Of a DNA stretch of 64,000 nucleotides, positions 4,170 to 48,380 are shown piece by piece. Source of the DNA: Sulfurisphaera javensis (GTDB taxonomy: Archaea; Thermoproteota; Thermoprotei_A; Sulfolobales; Sulfolobaceae); the NCBI RefSeq assembly GCF_041154675.1, contig NZ_AP031322.1, positions 62,001-126,000 on the forward strand. The letters run 5' to 3'. The notes beneath the pieces are model-generated. The model searched no databases. It had not been told where the DNA came from and was given only the letters and a program-made list of their open reading frames with translations. Both the position numbers and the translations under genes were made by a program. The first letter of the stretch is position 1; every line of letters starts with the position of its first letter.

Positions 4170-4755
4170 CTTCTTTTATTCCATAATAAAGAGCATTATT
4201 AGGCAAAAATGAATTTACAGAATATAAAAAATATTTTTGAGTTTTAAATCCACTAAATTCCATAAACTTTTTCAATTCCCACGGAAGATAGAGTCTGTAG
4301 TTTCTCCTAACTATTTTATTATTAATTTTGCTTTCTAATTTCACAAATCTTCTAAAGAAATATTTCGGTTGAACTAACCAAACAGTAACTAAAATATCTC
4401 CTCCTTGCTTTAAGCATCTATAACTTTCCTTAATTGCATTTAAAGGATCTTTTAGATGATGAATTGAGGCAATGTAAAGTAAAGACTCAAAAGAATTGTC
4501 TCTAAAGGGCATAAATTCCATGTCAGCTTGAACTAGATCTTCACAACCTTTCTTTCTTGCTTCGATAAGTTGTCTCAATGCAATATCTAGGCATACTGTA
4601 AATAATTTCCTATTCTTTAATGTCAAACAGTTCTGACCAGATCCACAACCAATGTCTCCAACAATTTTACCTTTAACGAAATTTAAATAAAGAAGAGGCT
4701 TTCTTCTATGAACAATATACTCATAAGCCTCTTTAGTCTCCTCTTTCTCATTCAC
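4153..4755 (-). CDS. Class I SAM-dependent methyltransferase, possibly Trm9-like
   Basis: A 200-residue Rossmann-fold methyltransferase. It shows motif [12 protein letters not shown], the acidic LDIALRQL strand, [10 protein letters not shown] (motif II region) and a SIHHL...[12 protein letters not shown] stretch. The HHL plus terminal Trp combination resembles Trm9/ABH8-type enzymes that modify the tRNA wobble uridine. A small-molecule or quinone methyltransferase cannot be excluded. It is transcribed away from the HypE-like gene, starts 31 bp apart. Confidence 0.75.
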
Positions 4756-40311: not shown

Positions 40312-40713
40312 TTACCTGGAACAAACTCTCATAAAGCAATAAAGGTATCCAACTAACATCGAAGTCAATGCTAAAGATACCTCAAATCCATAAAGCATAA
40401 CTCTCGTAAAATCATCGTTAGTTGTTAGTAAATATCCTAAACCAGACAAACCAGCTATTACAATTGAAGTTAAATTACTTAAAGCAATGAATTTTGGAAA
40501 TAGTAATCCAGTCCTATAAGCTAATATATATAGATAAAGTGCAAGCCCACCAGTAACGACTGCAAAAATTAAATGCATGATAAGTACTTCTTCTGACATA
40601 TTAGTCTTTAAGTCACCATTATCTATTAATGCTCTTGTTAAACCAAGAGAGAATGTGATAAATAGTATTACAATGCTAAATATTGAGTATTTATAAACTT
40701 GTTGAGGATTCAT
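40312..40713 (-). CDS. Membrane protein, second gene left of cbsA
   Basis: About 133 residues, four membrane helices, with two membrane histidines: one in MHLIFAVVTGGLALYLYILA. This resembles small haem or quinone-linked membrane proteins, but no clear family match. The ATG at 40713 (MNPQQVYKYS) follows a purine-rich stretch; the upstream alternative at 40770 lies deep in the preceding gene. It overlaps the preceding gene by 23 bases. Confidence 0.55.
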   Translation of the reverse strand: MNPQQVYKYSIFSIVILFITFSLGLTRALIDNGDLKTNMSEEVLIMHLIFAVVTGGLALYLYILAYRTGLLFPKFIALSNLTSIVIAGLSGLGYLLTTNDDFTRVMLYGFEVSLALTSMLVGYLYCFMRVCSR

Positions 40714-41269
40714 TTTCTTTAACCACCTCTTCTTCGCAACATATTTTATCTCCAAAAGGTATTTCTCCAAGCTTTAATCTTAATGCTAATGAGGATTCTA
40801 AAAGTGCAGATTGTATATTTTCTAATAATTTATACCATGCTAGATTAGGACTATCATCCCTAATCTTAATTCCTAGTTCATAGGCAATCTGCTTTAATGA
40901 AGGAATGCAATTATTCAAAACAGAACAATTTCCACAAGTATAAGTTGAATTATAATAATCAAAGTATATGATTTGTTTCTTATTTGTTATATACATAATT
41001 CCTTCTTTAAGAGATACTGATTTTCCATTTATAGAATAAGGAATCACTGCTTTAAAGGAAATAGCATTATCTAAAAGCAATCCCATTTTTCTTAATTTAT
41101 CTACTATAAAATAAAAATAACTTTTACTAATTTCTTCTCCTCTTTTATCACTACTTAAAACTCTTATATACACTTCATCCCTTAACTTTGCAAAGTTGTC
41201 TTCTCTGAGTAATATTATATCGTTAGAAATTATAGGCCTAGTAACATTAACAACTCTAAGCAAACACAT
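40691..41269 (-). CDS. Cysteine-containing protein divergent from cbsA
   Basis: 192 residues, soluble. The N-terminal half is helical with strands (YFYFIVDKLRKMGLLLDN). A compact Cys cluster CGNCSVLNNC (about residues 133-142) and a later CC pair (about 177-178) could bind zinc or an iron-sulfur cluster. A TATA-like AATATAAAC lies 30-35 bases before the ATG. It is transcribed away from the cytochrome cluster, a position often used by local regulators, but no standard DNA-binding domain can be recognised, so a regulatory role is only a suggestion. Confidence 0.6.
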   Translation of the reverse strand: MCLLRVVNVTRPIISNDIILLREDNFAKLRDEVYIRVLSSDKRGEEISKSYFYFIVDKLRKMGLLLDNAISFKAVIPYSINGKSVSLKEGIMYITNKKQIIYFDYYNSTYTCGNCSVLNNCIPSLKQIAYELGIKIRDDSPNLAWYKLLENIQSALLESSLALRLKLGEIPFGDKICCEEEVVKENESSTSL

Positions 41270-41406: not shown

Positions 41407-41415
41407 AGTCCAACG
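41407..41415 (+). promoter_or_regulatory. AGTCCAACG site, cbsA promoter
   Basis: First of three identical 9-bp words in the respiratory cluster. A TATA-like TTTAT (41424-41428) follows after 8 bases and the ATG used for cbsA (41461) lies 45 bases after the site. The arrangement matches the soxL2 and soxN promoters, which argues that the upstream ATG at 41404, whose codons 2-4 would be this word, is not the real start. Confidence 0.6.
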
Positions 41416-41460
41416 CTTAATGTTTATCAGTTGAATAGTAAAACTAATTATTGTGATAAA

Positions 41461-42858
41461 ATGAGTATAAAGCCTTCTCCTAAGTTAACATTAGGTGTAA
41501 TTTTAGCTATTTTACTATTAGGAGTATTGTTAGCAGTAACAAATACACCAATGGCACAAACATCACCACAAATACCAGTCTATAAAGTAGTAGGAACAGC
41601 AGACATTTCTAATCCTGGCTCAGCATCTTATTGGCAAAAAATACCATGGATAAACATATCATTAACAGCTAACATTCCTCAAGCTCCAACTTCTGGTTTA
41701 ACTCACTACATTCTAGTAAAAGCTGCTTGGAACGGAAGCTGGATATTTGTCCTTGTTAGATGGTATGCTCCTAACCCAGCATTTGGTGCATGGTCTGCTG
41801 CTGCTGGAGCATTATACCCACCAGCCTCTGGTCCCGGGCTATTTAGACAAATAATTCTAACACCCGGTACAACATACACTATTGAAAAGAATTATACTAA
41901 CTATGTCTCAATTATTAATGGTAAGACTGTACAAGGAAGACTTGTACTTAATTATTCTGGAATATTACTTCCTACTCCTAATGGAACACAAATAACTGTC
42001 TTATCTAACGGTTCAATTATACTATGGCACTCATTAAGACCAATGGAAGATTTACTTTATAGTGATGGTATGTTTTATGGATATTATACTAACTCAACTT
42101 GGTACTATCCAGATAGAGTAGCAATGATGTGGTATATGGGTAGTGTTGTTCCACCAAGTAAAGATGGAATGAATATAGGTGGTAAATACCCTGGACAAGT
42201 TTTTGATGGAGTCACTTTTAAAGATGCTGGTGGTTCATTAGCTCAACCAGGCGGTGCAGCTAATATTTGGATGTGGGTATCTGGTGCTACTTGGAATAAC
42301 TCTACATATGATCCCGCATTCAAAGTAAACTTATGGCAAAACAAATCATTAACCGGATTACCTTATGTAGACCCCGGAAATCATGGATTTGCTGTACCAC
42401 TATACACAAATAACACTAACATGTATGAGGTAGACTGTGCTGGAATATGGTATACCCCAGTTGCTTCTAGTGGATTAAATGGCTCATTATTCTTCATATG
42501 GACTGGGGCTACATATAGCAATGGTTATTGGACAGTGGAATATGCAAGACCTTTAGCTGTTCCACCTAACTATGCAAAATGGATGCCTAACATAAGTGTA
42601 GGAAACACTTATTATGTAGCCTTTGCAGTATGGCAAGGAAAATTAGGTGAAACTCTATTTGATAAATCAATAACATCTTCATTCTTAACATTGCAATTAG
42701 TCACTTCACCACCACCTACTACTACAACAACAACTACCAGCGTTTCTACAAGCACATCTTCTCCCTCTATTCCTTCGACAACAGTTGATGTTACTGTAGC
42801 TGGAGCAGTTATAGCTGTATTAGCACTTGTTATACTATATGTGGTGTATAGAAGATGA
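41461..42858 (+). CDS. cbsA: CbsA, glycosylated mono-haem-type cytochrome b558/566 subunit A
   Basis: About 465 residues. Extracytoplasmic haem protein of the Sulfolobales bc1-like cluster, known from S. acidocaldarius as a highly glycosylated cytochrome. It has a signal or anchor helix at the start ([18 protein letters not shown]), then a large domain with [22 protein letters not shown] and many N-x-S/T sites (NIS, NGS, NYT, NST), and a short Thr/Ser stalk and C-terminal helix ([18 protein letters not shown]). Start chosen at 41461 because of the promoter site and because the signal helix then starts near the N-terminus; the ATG at 41404 would add 19 residues. cbsB overlaps its stop by 4 bases. 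Confidence 0.88.
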
Positions 42859-43793
42859 GCATATTTTCGTCCTTAGAAAAAGACATTAAATATTTTTTTA
42901 TAATTTTAGGTGTTTCCTCATTCTTTCAATTTATGTTTTCTGAAGCCTTTATATTTCCTTCAGCCTTACCAATAAAAATACCAGCTGAATCAATCTTATT
43001 AAGAATAGGAGATATCTCATTTTACATATTTTTTATTTCTCTAATAGTTATTTCGCTAATCCTATCTAGCAAGATAAGGGCTCTTCTTCCACTATCTCTA
43101 ATCCTTATAATTTCACCATTTTTAGCTATATTTGAGGTTAATTATCAAATATATTATGGTATTGAAATTTTCATTATAGTTATCTCATTTGCTGTAATCA
43201 TAGAAACTATTCTTAAAAGTAGCTTAAGATCAATATTATTAATTCCTTCAGCCATCCTAGTTATTATTGGCCTTATTGCGTCATTCCTTATTGATTTCTT
43301 GCATACTTCTTTATTCATTAGCTACTTAAACATTTTCATTATTTCATCTATATTTTTCCTAATTTACGCAATCTTATGGGGGAAAATAATCAGCAAAAGA
43401 AGTATTATTGCATATATAGTTGGAATAATAAGTATGTATCCCTTTATAATGTTCGCTCATGAGATTAGTACTAATCGTTATGTTGAGATGCTAATGGAAA
43501 TGATACTTCCATCTGCTTTAGGAATAACAATTTACAACCCTACTCACATTTTGTATTTAACTTATACTCTATCAATTATTGCCCTTTCAATAATTTCAAT
43601 TATTATTAAGGGAAATGGTGCAGCTGGGATAGGATATTTTCTTATAATAACTACTGTATTTTTTGGGACATATGGATATCTTTTACTATTTTATATGATG
43701 GTACCCACTATAGGATATGTTATAATGAACTATAATGAAATGAAAGAGAAAAGAATAATTGACTATTTCTCAAAAGTTATTCAAAAATCTTAA
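42855..43793 (+). CDS. cbsB: CbsB, hydrophobic partner of CbsA
   Basis: 312 residues with about nine or ten membrane helices and little else. CbsB is the membrane subunit that goes with CbsA in the alternative bc1-like complex. Identification rests mainly on its position between cbsA (4-base ATGA overlap) and soxL2. A His in a helix near 202 (FAHEIS) could be a haem or quinone contact. No own promoter. Confidence 0.8.
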
Positions 43794-43828
43794 ATTGATG
43801 TAAAAATTTAGATTTTTTAAGATTAATT

Positions 43829-43837
43829 AGTCCAACG
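43829..43837 (+). promoter_or_regulatory. AGTCCAACG site, soxL2 promoter
   Basis: Identical to the sites before cbsA and soxN. The TATA-like ATTATATG (43845-43852) follows after 7 bases and the ATG is 46 bases after the site. Lying just upstream of TATA/BRE, it is well placed for an activator. Confidence 0.6.
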
Positions 43838-43883
43838 GGCAAAGATTATATGCTTCATAACATAAATTATTCTTTGTGATATC

Positions 43884-44864
43884 ATGATAAAAATAAGGCT
43901 TGGTGACAAAGAAGAGAAAAGTATACTAAGTTATTCTGACTTAGTCTTTATTAAGAGACTTTTAGCAAAGATGAGAGATCCAAAAACTAAGTTTGATTCT
44001 AGAGAGTTTGTAAATAAAGGAGAAGACTACTTATTTAATTATGTAAATAAAAATGTCGGAAGTGTTGATGAGAAAAGAAGGAAGTTTCTAAAAGGATTAA
44101 TTTTTGGAATAGCAGCTGCAACAATCGCTGGCATCATACCAGGGGTTGAAGTAATTGTCCCGCCTACTATTACAGCAGTATCTGGTTTTCCAAAATCTCT
44201 TTTAGTTGATTCTTCCGGAAATCCAATAAAAGCATCCGAATTACCAGTTAATAGTCCTTATATACTAATCTTTGAATACCCAATGACTGGAGAACCAAAC
44301 TTCCTTCTTAACCTTGGAGATTCTTCTGGCAAGCCAGTTGAAATCCCTCCAACCAAAGTTACAGTACCCCAAACTGGAGATACATATGATTTTCCAGGAG
44401 GGGTTGGTCCAAATAAGTCAATAGTTGCTTATAGTGCAATTTGCCAACACTTAGGTTGTACTCCACCATATATTCACTTTTATCCACCACAATATGTTAG
44501 TCCTTCACAATTAACGGCCCCAGAACCTGACCAATTAACAGCCCAGGCATTATTAGCTGCTAAGCAAGCAAAAGCTCCAGCTATAATTCACTGTGATTGC
44601 CATGGTTCAACCTACGATCCTTATCGTGGTGCTGCTGTATTAACTGGACCAACACAAAGACCTCTACCCACTGTAGTTTTAGAATGGGACTCTAGTACTG
44701 ATTACTTATATGCTATTGGCTCAGTAGGTGTGGCAGTATATCCTAATGGAGCTAATGGTGTTCCTTCTCAGAATCCAAAAGACGATTTAGATAGTAGTTT
44801 TGGATCCCCTGTAGGAGACAAAACTACAGTTAAGCAAACTGAAAATCCGTTCAGTGGAAGCTAA
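43884..44864 (+). CDS. soxL2: SoxL2, Rieske iron-sulfur protein
   Basis: 326 residues. Electron-carrying [2Fe-2S] subunit of the bc1-like complex on the outer face of the membrane. A 60-residue charged N-terminal part precedes a twin-arginine-type anchor (RRKFLKG then GIAAATIAGIIPG at about 70-88). The Rieske ligands are in CQHLGC (about 186-191) and CDCHGS (about 237-242), separated by a longer loop than usual. A conserved proline-rich GPTQRPLP loop follows. The Tat signal fits export of a folded cluster protein. It has its own promoter with the AGTCCAACG site. Confidence 0.95.
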   Translation: MIKIRLGDKEEKSILSYSDLVFIKRLLAKMRDPKTKFDSREFVNKGEDYLFNYVNKNVGSVDEKRRKFLKGLIFGIAAATIAGIIPGVEVIVPPTITAVSGFPKSLLVDSSGNPIKASELPVNSPYILIFEYPMTGEPNFLLNLGDSSGKPVEIPPTKVTVPQTGDTYDFPGGVGPNKSIVAYSAICQHLGCTPPYIHFYPPQYVSPSQLTAPEPDQLTAQALLAAKQAKAPAIIHCDCHGSTYDPYRGAAVLTGPTQRPLPTVVLEWDSSTDYLYAIGSVGVAVYPNGANGVPSQNPKDDLDSSFGSPVGDKTTVKQTENPFSGS

Positions 44865-44952
44865 TCTTCTTTTTTCCTAATTATAACATATTTTTCCTAA
44901 TTTATTATAATTATTGACTAAAATTCTTTATGTCATATTGTTCTTAAAAATC

Positions 44953-44961
44953 AGTCCAACG
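44953..44961 (+). promoter_or_regulatory. AGTCCAACG site, soxN promoter
   Basis: Third copy. The TATA-like TTTTTTAATAT (44970-44980) follows after 8 bases and the soxN ATG is 36 bases after the site, compatible with a leaderless transcript. No further copy was noticed elsewhere in the window on reading either strand. Confidence 0.6.
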
Positions 44962-44997
44962 TTAAATCCTTTTTTAATATCTAACTAATTTTATTAT

Positions 44998-46485
44998 ATG
45001 AGTGATAGAGTATCAAATTGGTTCAAAGAGAGATTAGGATTAGATGATTTACCATTTTTCAGAACACCAGACTATATGTATAAAGTGAATTTCTGGCTAG
45101 GAGCATTAGTAGCGTCAGCATTTATTTATACAGTAATATCTGGATTAATACTACTTCTTTACTATAACCCAGACGAAGGATATCAATCTACGCAATTTAT
45201 TATCCAACATGTCCCTTATGGTTCAGTAGTACTTTATAGCCATTTATATGGAGCATATGCAATGATCATATTAGCTTATGTGCATATGTTTAGGAATTAT
45301 TTTGCTGGAGCCTATAAGAGACCTAGAGAATTATTATGGATAATTGGAGTTCTTATGTTAGTATTAACTTTAGGTACTGCATTTTTAGGTTACAGCTTAA
45401 TTGGCGATGCTTTAGCGACTAGCGCAGTAGATGTAGGAGCTGGTATAGTATCTTCAGTTCCCGGATTATCTAGTTTTGTCCCTATACTGTTTGGAAACTA
45501 TGATGCTGGCCAATATGAAAGAGTATTAGCATTACATATAATATTTGCAGCATTAATTGGAGTATTATTCGTATTTCATTTCTTCTTAGCTGAACATTAC
45601 GGAATGATGCCATCAAGAAAAGAAAAGTCAAAAGCTCCAGCTGTCTATACAAAAGAAGAATGGATGAAATTTAACCCATGGTGGCCGAGAAACTTTGTTT
45701 ACATGATATCTTTAGTTTTCTTAACATGGGGTTTCATATTAGTGATTCCAAACGCACTTGCATATTTAAGTGGATTACCTCAACAACTTAATCCATTTTT
45801 AAATCCAAAACCAGCACCACCACCAAATTCACCAGCCGCAGCCCATATAACAACCTATCCTCCATGGTTCTTCTTATTCCTATACAAAATGGCTGACTTT
45901 ACTTCTAATGTAACAGTATTTTTACTGTTTAGTAGCATTATACCATTAGTTTATCTAATCTTAGTTCCATTCTTAGACAGAAGCCCAGAACTTCACCCAC
46001 TTAAGAGAAAAGTATTTACTGGTATTGGAATACTAATGATTACGTATTTAATACAAAATACTATATGGGGAGATCTAACTCCTGGCGTACCAATACCATT
46101 TAAACAGCAAGTTATTGCATTTTTACCACCAGCTGTGATAGTAGCTATAGGAATGTACTTACTCCCATCTCCTAAAGAAGGATCAAACAACAACACATCT
46201 ACTCAAGTAACACAGCAAACAAATATTACCAAGATGATTAATAACTTTCCAAGCTTGCCTATAAAGGCTCTAGGAAAAGTAGAAGTTTCTATGGAGAGAA
46301 AGAAGACTCTTGCCGAAATCCTCATATCTATATTATTCATAATGGCTGTTATATTAACTGCACAGATATGGACAATTCCATCAACTGGTCCAGCATCTAA
46401 TTTATTCGGTATTGATTTAGGATTAATATTTATTATGCTGGGAGAAGCAATATCATTATATCACTACGTGGTGTATAAGAAATGA
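44998..46485 (+). CDS. soxN: SoxN, cytochrome b of the bc1-like complex
   Basis: 495 residues with about ten to twelve membrane helices. The two haem-b pairs are visible: H82 with H96 and H180 with H194. The quinol-site PEWY motif of ordinary cytochrome b appears as PPWF in TYPPWFFLFLYK. After the standard core comes a hydrophilic segment (about 395-440) and two extra C-terminal helices. It oxidises quinol and passes electrons to SoxL2 and CbsA. The odsN start overlaps its stop by 4 bases. Confidence 0.95.
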   Translation: MSDRVSNWFKERLGLDDLPFFRTPDYMYKVNFWLGALVASAFIYTVISGLILLLYYNPDEGYQSTQFIIQHVPYGSVVLYSHLYGAYAMIILAYVHMFRNYFAGAYKRPRELLWIIGVLMLVLTLGTAFLGYSLIGDALATSAVDVGAGIVSSVPGLSSFVPILFGNYDAGQYERVLALHIIFAALIGVLFVFHFFLAEHYGMMPSRKEKSKAPAVYTKEEWMKFNPWWPRNFVYMISLVFLTWGFILVIPNALAYLSGLPQQLNPFLNPKPAPPPNSPAAAHITTYPPWFFLFLYKMADFTSNVTVFLLFSSIIPLVYLILVPFLDRSPELHPLKRKVFTGIGILMITYLIQNTIWGDLTPGVPIPFKQQVIAFLPPAVIVAIGMYLLPSPKEGSNNNTSTQVTQQTNITKMINNFPSLPIKALGKVEVSMERKKTLAEILISILFIMAVILTAQIWTIPSTGPASNLFGIDLGLIFIMLGEAISLYHYVVYKK

Positions 46486-46772
46486 TAAGCGTAGGGTTTT
46501 ACTATAAAATTAAAAAAGGACATGAAGAAGAATTTGAGAAAAAATTTAATGAGGTAGCTCAATATCTATCCAAATTCCCTGGATTTAAAGGAGCAAGGCT
46601 ATATAAAAGCGTAGATGATCCATCAGAATATTTAGTATATAGTGAATGGGAGGATTTAGACTCTTATAGAAAATTCATAACCAGCATGGCTTACAAAGAA
46701 ACTGTAGAATATGGTAAGACAATAATTGAAGGTAGACCCACTCATAAGGTATTTCAACAAGTTAATTCATAA
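46482..46772 (+). CDS. odsN: OdsN, small ABM-domain protein of the cytochrome cluster
   Basis: 96 residues with the dimeric alpha/beta-barrel (antibiotic biosynthesis monooxygenase) fold: GFYYKIKKGHEEEFEKKF, FPGFKGARLYK, DPSEYLVYSEWEDL. In related Sulfolobales it is the last gene of the cbsAB-soxLN cluster, with unknown biochemical role; a haem- or quinone-related task is possible. ATGA overlap with soxN. Confidence 0.85.
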   Translation: MISVGFYYKIKKGHEEEFEKKFNEVAQYLSKFPGFKGARLYKSVDDPSEYLVYSEWEDLDSYRKFITSMAYKETVEYGKTIIEGRPTHKVFQQVNS

Positions 46773-46847: not shown

Positions 46848-47291
46848 ATGAAAATAACCATTGGGGAAATAATAGGCATATTGTTAATTTTAGCAGGACT
46901 ATCACTAGGATTCCTGTCAGCAACACCAGTGACATCAAGTCACTTAACATTAATTTCACCTTCAACAATCTCAAAATACTTGGGAAACTCATGGAGTGTA
47001 AACTATGAATACGTAGGATCTGGATATTATTCTAAGATACCTTTATTACAACAGTATAAGAACTCTCAAGTTGTTTATGAGAACTTAACTGATTCATTAG
47101 GAGATCAATTAATTATATTATATGTTTATCCTTATCATGGTTCAAGTACCATTTACACTAATGGTTTTACTGTATTATATACGATAAATAAAGGCAACGC
47201 TTATGTTATGATAAGTTATATTGGTAACTCCACTGAAGTTTCGTTATCTCAAATAGAAAGTTTAGGCAATTATATTCTAAGTACTGAATAA
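46848..47291 (+). CDS. Membrane-anchored extracytoplasmic protein, unknown
   Basis: 147 residues: one N-terminal helix (IIGILLILAGLSLGFLSA), then a beta-rich outer domain with few N-x-S/T sites (NLT, NST). A TATA-like GTTTTTAAGT lies 30-40 bases before the ATG, so it is transcribed independently of the cytochrome genes. Family unknown. Confidence 0.6.
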   Translation: MKITIGEIIGILLILAGLSLGFLSATPVTSSHLTLISPSTISKYLGNSWSVNYEYVGSGYYSKIPLLQQYKNSQVVYENLTDSLGDQLIILYVYPYHGSSTIYTNGFTVLYTINKGNAYVMISYIGNSTEVSLSQIESLGNYILSTE

Positions 47292-47321
47292 TTTTTTATT
47301 AGCAAAAGTAGAAAGAATAAT

Positions 47322-48380
47322 ATGGTAAATTATTTTCCTTATCTTTTAAATTATTTGTCAACCCAAGAAAATTTCCCATTAGATGCCGTAATACCAGAAC
47401 TGAAACCATTATACTCTTTTGCGAATGCATATAAATATGCTTGCTTAGGAAACTTACAACAATCAGCATTCTTTCTTCAAGGAGCTAAAGATTCACCATT
47501 CATTAATCCATATTCATTAAAACAACATAAACTTACAAATCCATCTTGTTATGATAATCTTTTCTTATCAGTAAACAACTATTTCTTTCCTTCGGATATA
47601 GCAAAACACGCTTTAAATGCTATTATCTTAGAAACTAAAAACTACATTAATCCAGACTCCAATTTTGTCGAAAATGGAAATAAATTAGCTAGGGAAGAAA
47701 TAGATAAGGCATTGTCTTTCAACCCTAACCCCGTCTACAAATTTTATAAGGCTTTCATCTCAAGAGATTTTGATAATAATCATTATCAACTTATAAAAGA
47801 ATATTATAAACATATAGAAAACAATTTCCTTAGTTATTATCAACCACTTTTTGATTTAACGTTTTATCATTTATCATTTCTAAACATTAGTGATGTTTCC
47901 TCAACAATGGTAGCACTCGTATCAAATTTCATAGCTTATAACGAGATAGATTTACTATCTGAAGGAGTAAGTAAGATTTCTTCTCATTTACCTCTGAATC
48001 CCTTAGCTTTTACTGACTTATACTTCGCTTCAAGAGATTTAGCTAAACTTATTGAGATAATTTCAACTTCCTACTCATTTACGTTAGAGCAAAGCGATCA
48101 TGCAACTTCAAAATCTATTCCCTCAATTTTAAAAGCTGAAAAGGAATTAGAAAAACATGGAAGACAAAGACAAACAATTGCATTAAGAATTATGCTGAAA
48201 TATATTAAAGATAGAAATACGGAAGAATTTTACAAAGAGTATTATATTATGAGACAAATACATGATGTAGCATTTAAGGACTATCTTTATTATTTATACA
48301 AGGGTAGTAGAAGAGAAATACAGAAAGAATTATGCAAATTAGAAAAAGAAGAACTTGCTGAACTTTGCAACTTTACTTGA
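47322..48380 (+). CDS. Unknown helical protein, Sulfolobales-type
   Basis: 352 residues, soluble, helical, rich in Tyr, Phe and Leu. Helix-pair rhythm (NAYKYACLGNLQQSAFFLQG, YKFYKAFISRDFD) suggests a TPR-like superhelix. No catalytic motif. It follows the previous gene after 30 bases and may be cotranscribed. No family recognised. Confidence 0.6.
   Translation: MVNYFPYLLNYLSTQENFPLDAVIPELKPLYSFANAYKYACLGNLQQSAFFLQGAKDSPFINPYSLKQHKLTNPSCYDNLFLSVNNYFFPSDIAKHALNAIILETKNYINPDSNFVENGNKLAREEIDKALSFNPNPVYKFYKAFISRDFDNNHYQLIKEYYKHIENNFLSYYQPLFDLTFYHLSFLNISDVSSTMVALVSNFIAYNEIDLLSEGVSKISSHLPLNPLAFTDLYFASRDLAKLIEIISTSYSFTLEQSDHATSKSIPSILKAEKELEKHGRQRQTIALRIMLKYIKDRNTEEFYKEYYIMRQIHDVAFKDYLYYLYKGSRREIQKELCKLEKEELAELCNFT

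Follow-up and report, generated by a model that had tools for sequence, protein, structure and literature searches.

A conserved nine-base promoter element shared by the genes of a bc1-like respiratory complex in Sulfolobaceae, and a candidate regulator family linked to it

The window analysed here, a stretch of 64,000 nucleotides from the archaeon Sulfurisphaera javensis, carries the genes of a bc1-like complex and, divergent from the first of them, the gene of a candidate regulator. Since cbsB overlaps cbsA, the two genes presumably share one transcript; with the equivalent overlap of odsN and soxN, the single complex is divided among three transcription units, i.e., cbsAB, soxL2 and soxN-odsN. 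Each unit is preceded by the same nine-base word, AGTCCAACG. The features are as follows.

40691..41269, minus strand: regA, candidate regulator of 192 aa, divergent from cbsA, with C2, an SKSY helix and a CxxCx5C motif (from its family, invariant positions and a structural model)
41407..41415, plus strand: AGTCCAACG site of the cbsAB promoter, kept in 21 of 22 genomes of eight genera (in G013 the cbsA copies lie elsewhere, with sites)
41420, plus strand: conserved BRE adenine of the cbsA promoter (column +13 of the 64-site alignment described below)
41423..41429, plus strand: TATA-like element of cbsA, TTTATCA (columns +16 to +22 of that alignment)
41461..42858, plus strand: cbsA, with a PF09459-type haem b domain; start corrected to 41461
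42855..43793, plus strand: cbsB, overlapping cbsA by 4 bp
43829..43837, plus strand: AGTCCAACG site of the soxL2 promoter (window count and cross-genome conservation)
43845..43851, plus strand: TATA-like element of soxL2, ATTATAT (spacing and 64-site alignment)
43884..44864, plus strand: soxL2, Rieske protein (PF00355)
44953..44961, plus strand: AGTCCAACG site of the soxN-odsN promoter (window count and cross-genome conservation)
44969..44975, plus strand: TATA-like element of soxN, CTTTTTT (spacing and 64-site alignment)
44998..46485, plus strand: soxN, cytochrome b (PF13631/PF00033)
46482..46772, plus strand: odsN (PF03992), overlapping soxN by 4 bp

Behind odsN lie two genes of 147 and 352 aa (window 46848-48380), for which a Pfam search gave no match.

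These three are the only copies of AGTCCAACG in the window, where ~0.06 would be expected; in 100 dinucleotide shuffles, the count never came to three. A T/A-rich, TATA-like element starts 7-8 bp past the word at cbsA, soxL2 and soxN, and the end of the word is 45, 46 and 36 bp, respectively, from the start codon. The first-pass annotation had described this word before the TATA elements of three promoters and judged a chance recurrence very unlikely; its positions and spacing are confirmed here, and the shuffles bear out its judgement. It had also moved the cbsA start to 41461. A longer, mechanically called cbsA ORF (from 41404, ATG-AGT-CCA-ACG) has a beginning that coincides with the word, and 15 of 23 relatives, all three congeners among them, have an in-frame stop between the word and the cbsA start codon; both observations support the later start.

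We compared the cbs cluster with that of 26 further Sulfolobaceae genomes. In 21 genomes, representing seven genera, AGTCCAACG or a variant differing by one or two bases (AGTCTAACG, AGTTCAACG or AGTCCAATT) precedes all three genes, always in the same position and on the same strand; in a 22nd genome, from an eighth genus (G020), the word is missing before soxN only. The word is thus kept across genera in orthologous promoters, where its absence would, for the first-pass annotation, have been a refutation. Within the genus of the window (g1), entire upstream regions are similar. Between genera, little is still alike besides the word and the core promoter, i.e., the BRE and TATA positions. Across the three promoters of nine representative lineages, the word occurs within one mismatch in 24 of 27, while the best score of any 9-mer in 40 shuffled promoter sets was 10. 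Three deep-branching genomes (G004, G005 and G022) have cbs-type genes with no site in the standard placement, and distant cytochrome b loci outside the Sulfolobales have no site in a promoter context. One of the three (G005, locus L123) has an exact, inverted ATAATCAGTCCAACG upstream of cbsA, near 4482-4490 on the minus strand, between cbsA and a divergent PEP carboxylase-like gene.

Alignment of 64 sites gave the consensus T[CA]ATn-AGTCCAACG-nnn[AT]A-nnn-TTWWW; its A at +13, in the BRE region, is near-invariant, and positions +17 to +22 form a TATA-like, T/A-rich stretch. With its constant spacing to BRE and TATA, the site is therefore a DNA element located immediately 5' of the BRE. The 64 sites thus share the placement of an archaeal upstream activating element, adjoining the BRE on its upstream side with unchanging distance to the TATA box, and, as expected of such an element, they are common to functionally related genes and kept in their orthologs.

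Genome-wide specificity was assessed by pattern searches with reversed-word controls. The host genome (2.57 Mb, one contig) has eight exact copies of AGTCCAACG and one of the reversed word. Four of the eight are placed as in promoters, at cbsA, soxL2, soxN and a fourth gene, regB, discussed below; the remaining four fall within genes or behind them. When core-promoter spacing was added to the exact word, 31 genomes of the family yielded 61 matches (reversed controls, 5) and 147 genomes of the class yielded 45 (reversed controls, 6). All but one of the 45 class-wide matches are in Sulfolobaceae, and 42 are at cbsA, soxL2, soxN, extra cbsA copies or regB, so the scatter over unrelated positions that the first-pass annotation would have taken as refuting its proposal is not seen. 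Two genomes hold many copies of the word, with promoter spacing in only 4 of 26 (G002) and 6 of 20 (G003). In the genus of the window, most sites with one mismatch elsewhere fall within genes or run antisense to them, and no conserved promoter site is among them; therefore, we claim no wider regulon there. In a single genome (G011:C10:27924, L189), a CoxG/SRPBCC-like gene is preceded at 46 bp by a copy of AGTCCAACG with good TATA spacing. This gene, like other genes with a site in one genome only, was set aside as a regulon member, since the site is not conserved.

The sites also follow the genes through rearrangements. Where cbsAB is inverted and apart from soxL2 (G001), each gene retains its own site, and sites are likewise retained where cbsA has been relocated (G013) or duplicated (G013, and as a broken copy in G003). 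In G013 (L108, L247 and L245), the cbs cluster is broken and cbsB persists only as fragments; a match to AGTCCAACG plus TATA remains ~10 kb upstream of soxL2, at the place expected for cbsA; a cbsA copy, intact and with a site of its own, lies ~1.5 Mb away. In another genome (G009, L118), two tandem cbsA copies have near-identical promoters, both with the variant AGTCCAATT. Taken with its recurrence in the window, we consider AGTCCAACG near certain to be a cis-element of respiratory promoters.

Members of the regA family are present in 30 of 31 Sulfolobaceae genomes; the sole exception (G024) also lacks a soxN ortholog. Another genome (G015) has lost soxN and retained both regA and regB. In 19 of 26 genomes, no more than 17 kb separate the cbs genes from a family member, which is often their immediate neighbour, and in nine genomes it is within ~0.6 kb; in the seven others of the 26, the members are distant from the cluster. 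The genome that we take, probably correctly, to be S. acidocaldarius (G023) has a single member, just behind odsN. The promoter of regA itself has no site. By contrast, its paralog regB (G000:C1:346.3 kb) is downstream of the fourth promoter-placed AGTCCAACG of the host genome. Indeed, in genus g1 and in G002 the regB promoters contain AGTCCAACG; in G003 the word is TGTCTAACG, and in g7 it is AGACCAACA, AGACTAACG or AGATCAGCG. These words are 43-50 bp away from the start, at the TATA spacing of the cbs promoters, and the promoter of one family member in G019 has ACTCCAACG. On a matrix trained on cbs promoters, the regB and G019 sites score about 10 to 27, compared with 2.9 for the 99th percentile of shuffled promoters. 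No known DNA-binding family was found among the neighbouring genes tested. Because the family recurs near the cbs genes and, as regB, under the site, it is the best candidate for the regulator of the site. Distant relatives occur in two other archaeal families (f7 and f29), mostly matching the cysteine-rich half of the protein.

Family and site also come together at another respiratory complex. In G003, a site outside the cluster precedes a gene for cytochrome bd subunit I (PF01654, E 4e-75). Cytochrome bd (cydA) genes are present in 11 of 31 genomes, and for nine of the 11 the divergent neighbour is a regA-family member of a subgroup that we call regC, or a remnant of one in G003. Eight of these nine cyd promoters contain AGT[CT]CAA[CT]R, exactly or with one base changed, and ~22 bp upstream of that site, in the opposite orientation and facing the family gene, is GTA[GA][GA]ACY (TAGGAC in the weakest case). 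Family and site are thus linked in three settings: the cbs neighbourhood, the regB promoter and the regC-cyd intergenic region. In the host (G000:C1:2320500-2323429; L225, L294), two family members lie just upstream of a cytochrome bd gene, whose promoter has AGTCTCACG facing an upstream GTGAGAACG, possibly a diverged site pair.

Positions S48, S50 and Y51 do not vary among 51 family members, and conservation is at least 90% at C2, K49, C112, C115 and C121. The family thus has four conserved cysteines of the kind that serve as ligands in Fe-S regulators, although the cyd-linked subgroup has lost the CxxCx5C motif. Profile searches with the 51 members gave no Pfam or NCBIfam family above the cut-off (Lrp, TrmB, ArsR, MarR and XylR-type families included); the best recurring weak match, below the cut-off, was the MCM_C winged helix (E 0.0057, 5 members). 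An AlphaFold2 model of regA (pLDDT 90, pTM 0.82) has an N-terminal domain (pLDDT 89.5) with a helix-helix-helix-hairpin order, and a search of the PDB with the whole model and with this domain gave no match at E <= 0.001. HlyU, SrnR and ArsR were among the insignificant fold matches of the N-terminal domain (E above 0.5), and we claim no membership in the ArsR/SmtB-type winged-helix group. There was also no profile or fold match to the FNR/CRP family, with its cNMP-binding beta barrel and C-terminal helix-turn-helix. DNA binding by the regA family is plausible from the predicted helix order and weak winged-helix hints. The CxxCx5C motif together with Cys2 suggests a redox or oxygen signal received via an Fe-S cluster or zinc, and we regard redox sensing by the family as a lead.

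The first-pass annotation had proposed a dedicated activator that coordinates the bc1-like complex. Conservation, spacing, specificity and persistence through rearrangements strongly support a dedicated binding site that coordinates the complex; that its factor would be an activator is suggested by the position of the site. We propose that AGTCCAACG, with its looser 5' extension T[CA]ATn, would be the upstream site of a dedicated regulator of respiratory quinol-oxidising complexes in Sulfolobaceae. Placed directly upstream of the BRE at a set distance from the TATA box, it would cause cbsAB, soxL2 and soxN-odsN to go up and down together. The binder would most likely be a member of the family encoded divergently from cbsA; regB, a paralog under the site, may provide feedback, and the regC subgroup would govern cytochrome bd from a divergent gene via a related pair of sites. 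The simplest role for a protein bound there would be to help recruit TFB/TBP, and the position just upstream of the BRE makes activation the likely sign. We put the probability that the regA family binds the site and co-activates the respiratory quinol-oxidising complexes at about two in three, and the family as binder, taken by itself, has similar odds. The analysis shows the site, with its conservation, spacing and specificity, and the link in location between family and site; binding, sign and signal are what we infer. In a broader version, a new archaeal family of transcription factors would carry an Fe-S or zinc site, sense redox or oxygen and, via AGTCCAACG-type sites, match the expression of the competing bc1-like CbsAB-SoxL2-SoxN and bd complexes, its paralogs cross- and autoregulating; this version is tentative and less likely than not.

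The site could instead be regulatory and bound by an unlinked factor (e.g., of Lrp, TrmB or MarR type), with the regA family being co-regulated respiratory accessory or sensor proteins. This we consider unlikely, if still deserving attention. The linked proteins have no fold or family match to DNA-binding proteins, a gene under a site need not code for its binder, and in seven genomes the family members are remote from the cbs cluster. On the other hand, the family turns up next to both cbs and bd, complexes unrelated to each other, and usually in the divergent arrangement that is frequent for regulators; the site is in the members' own promoters or in the shared intergenic region; and the tested neighbouring genes offer no known DNA-binding family in its stead. 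A different possibility is that the word is an extended core-promoter element for the basal machinery, such as a BRE variant of one TFB paralog, which would be consistent with its abutting the BRE region in a single orientation at fixed spacing. It is nonetheless very improbable: a basal element would not be limited to a handful of genes per genome, nine conserved positions far exceed a BRE, and both the inverted copy 5' of cbsA in G005 and the oppositely oriented partner GTAGGACY in cyd regions fit a separate DNA-binding protein. That the recurrence reflects chance or recent duplication of promoter DNA has a negligible probability. Conservation within g1 alone does prove little, since whole upstream regions are alike there, but the cross-genus alignment, in which only the word, BRE and TATA positions are alike, already refutes this explanation, and shuffled and reversed controls are far lower.

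The sign of regulation is a separate question, independent of the identity of the binder. Archaeal repressors usually act over the TATA box or the start site, whereas AGTCCAACG is upstream of BRE and TATA and covers neither. Activating precedents occupy the same position (PMC5817253). A repressor that turns the complex off in conditions that do not require it could nevertheless account for the decrease of the genes under nutrient depletion and overfeeding (PMC6335949; PMC11486757), and the upstream motif of the ups study is also found at down-regulated genes (PMC5817253). Overall, repression seems a minority prospect, and activation appears more likely. In S. acidocaldarius, the five cbs genes fall together under both conditions (PMC6335949; PMC11486757), with values of -1.6 to -2.1 for saci_1858-1862 (PMC11486757). 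Such joint change is as a common site predicts. Both studies describe a cluster that moves as a block and name no regulator (PMC6335949; PMC11486757). Among the papers searched, none gave a dedicated regulator of Sulfolobales respiratory complexes, and the matches listed for the exact word were unrelated (the 2003 description of the cbs-sox cluster was outside the scope of this search). Since the site is short and specific and the candidate family small, with a single copy in the genetically tractable S. acidocaldarius, the question can be tested directly.

Known archaeal elements offer close parallels in placement. The Ara box, AACATGTT, is positioned like AGTCCAACG and differs from it in sequence, pathway and protein. 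In the XylR regulon of Saccharolobus and Sulfolobus, this short sequence adjoins a weak BRE on the upstream side and activates sugar genes (PMC5817253, PMC8578740). In the ups promoters of S. acidocaldarius and S. tokodaii, a non-palindromic hexanucleotide, ANTTTC, is upstream of BRE/TATA at about -44 to -38; it serves several separately transcribed promoters of one system, its mutation abolishes activity and its binder was unknown in that study (PMC5817253). The ups motif is AT-rich and occurs before 214 genes (PMC5817253). AGTCCAACG is likewise non-palindromic, upstream of BRE/TATA and common to several separate promoters of one system, but it is a different word, contains G/C, is limited to few respiratory genes and, unlike ANTTTC, has a proposed partner protein family. 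As for that family, the nearest analogy is with FNR-type and other bacterial Fe-S redox regulators, which are also cysteine-bearing and encoded beside respiratory genes. The cysteine spacing of E. coli FNR is CxxCx5C plus one distant Cys. The Fe-S loop of MutY also has the spacing of the regA family, and a relationship to it was set aside because the weak match (E about 0.7) is not significant. The regA family differs from FNR-type regulators in that no sequence or fold relation was found and in acting, as proposed, on an archaeal basal machinery. If its cysteines hold a cluster, the family would represent an archaeal counterpart, based on an unrelated protein, to the control of respiration by FNR-type regulators.
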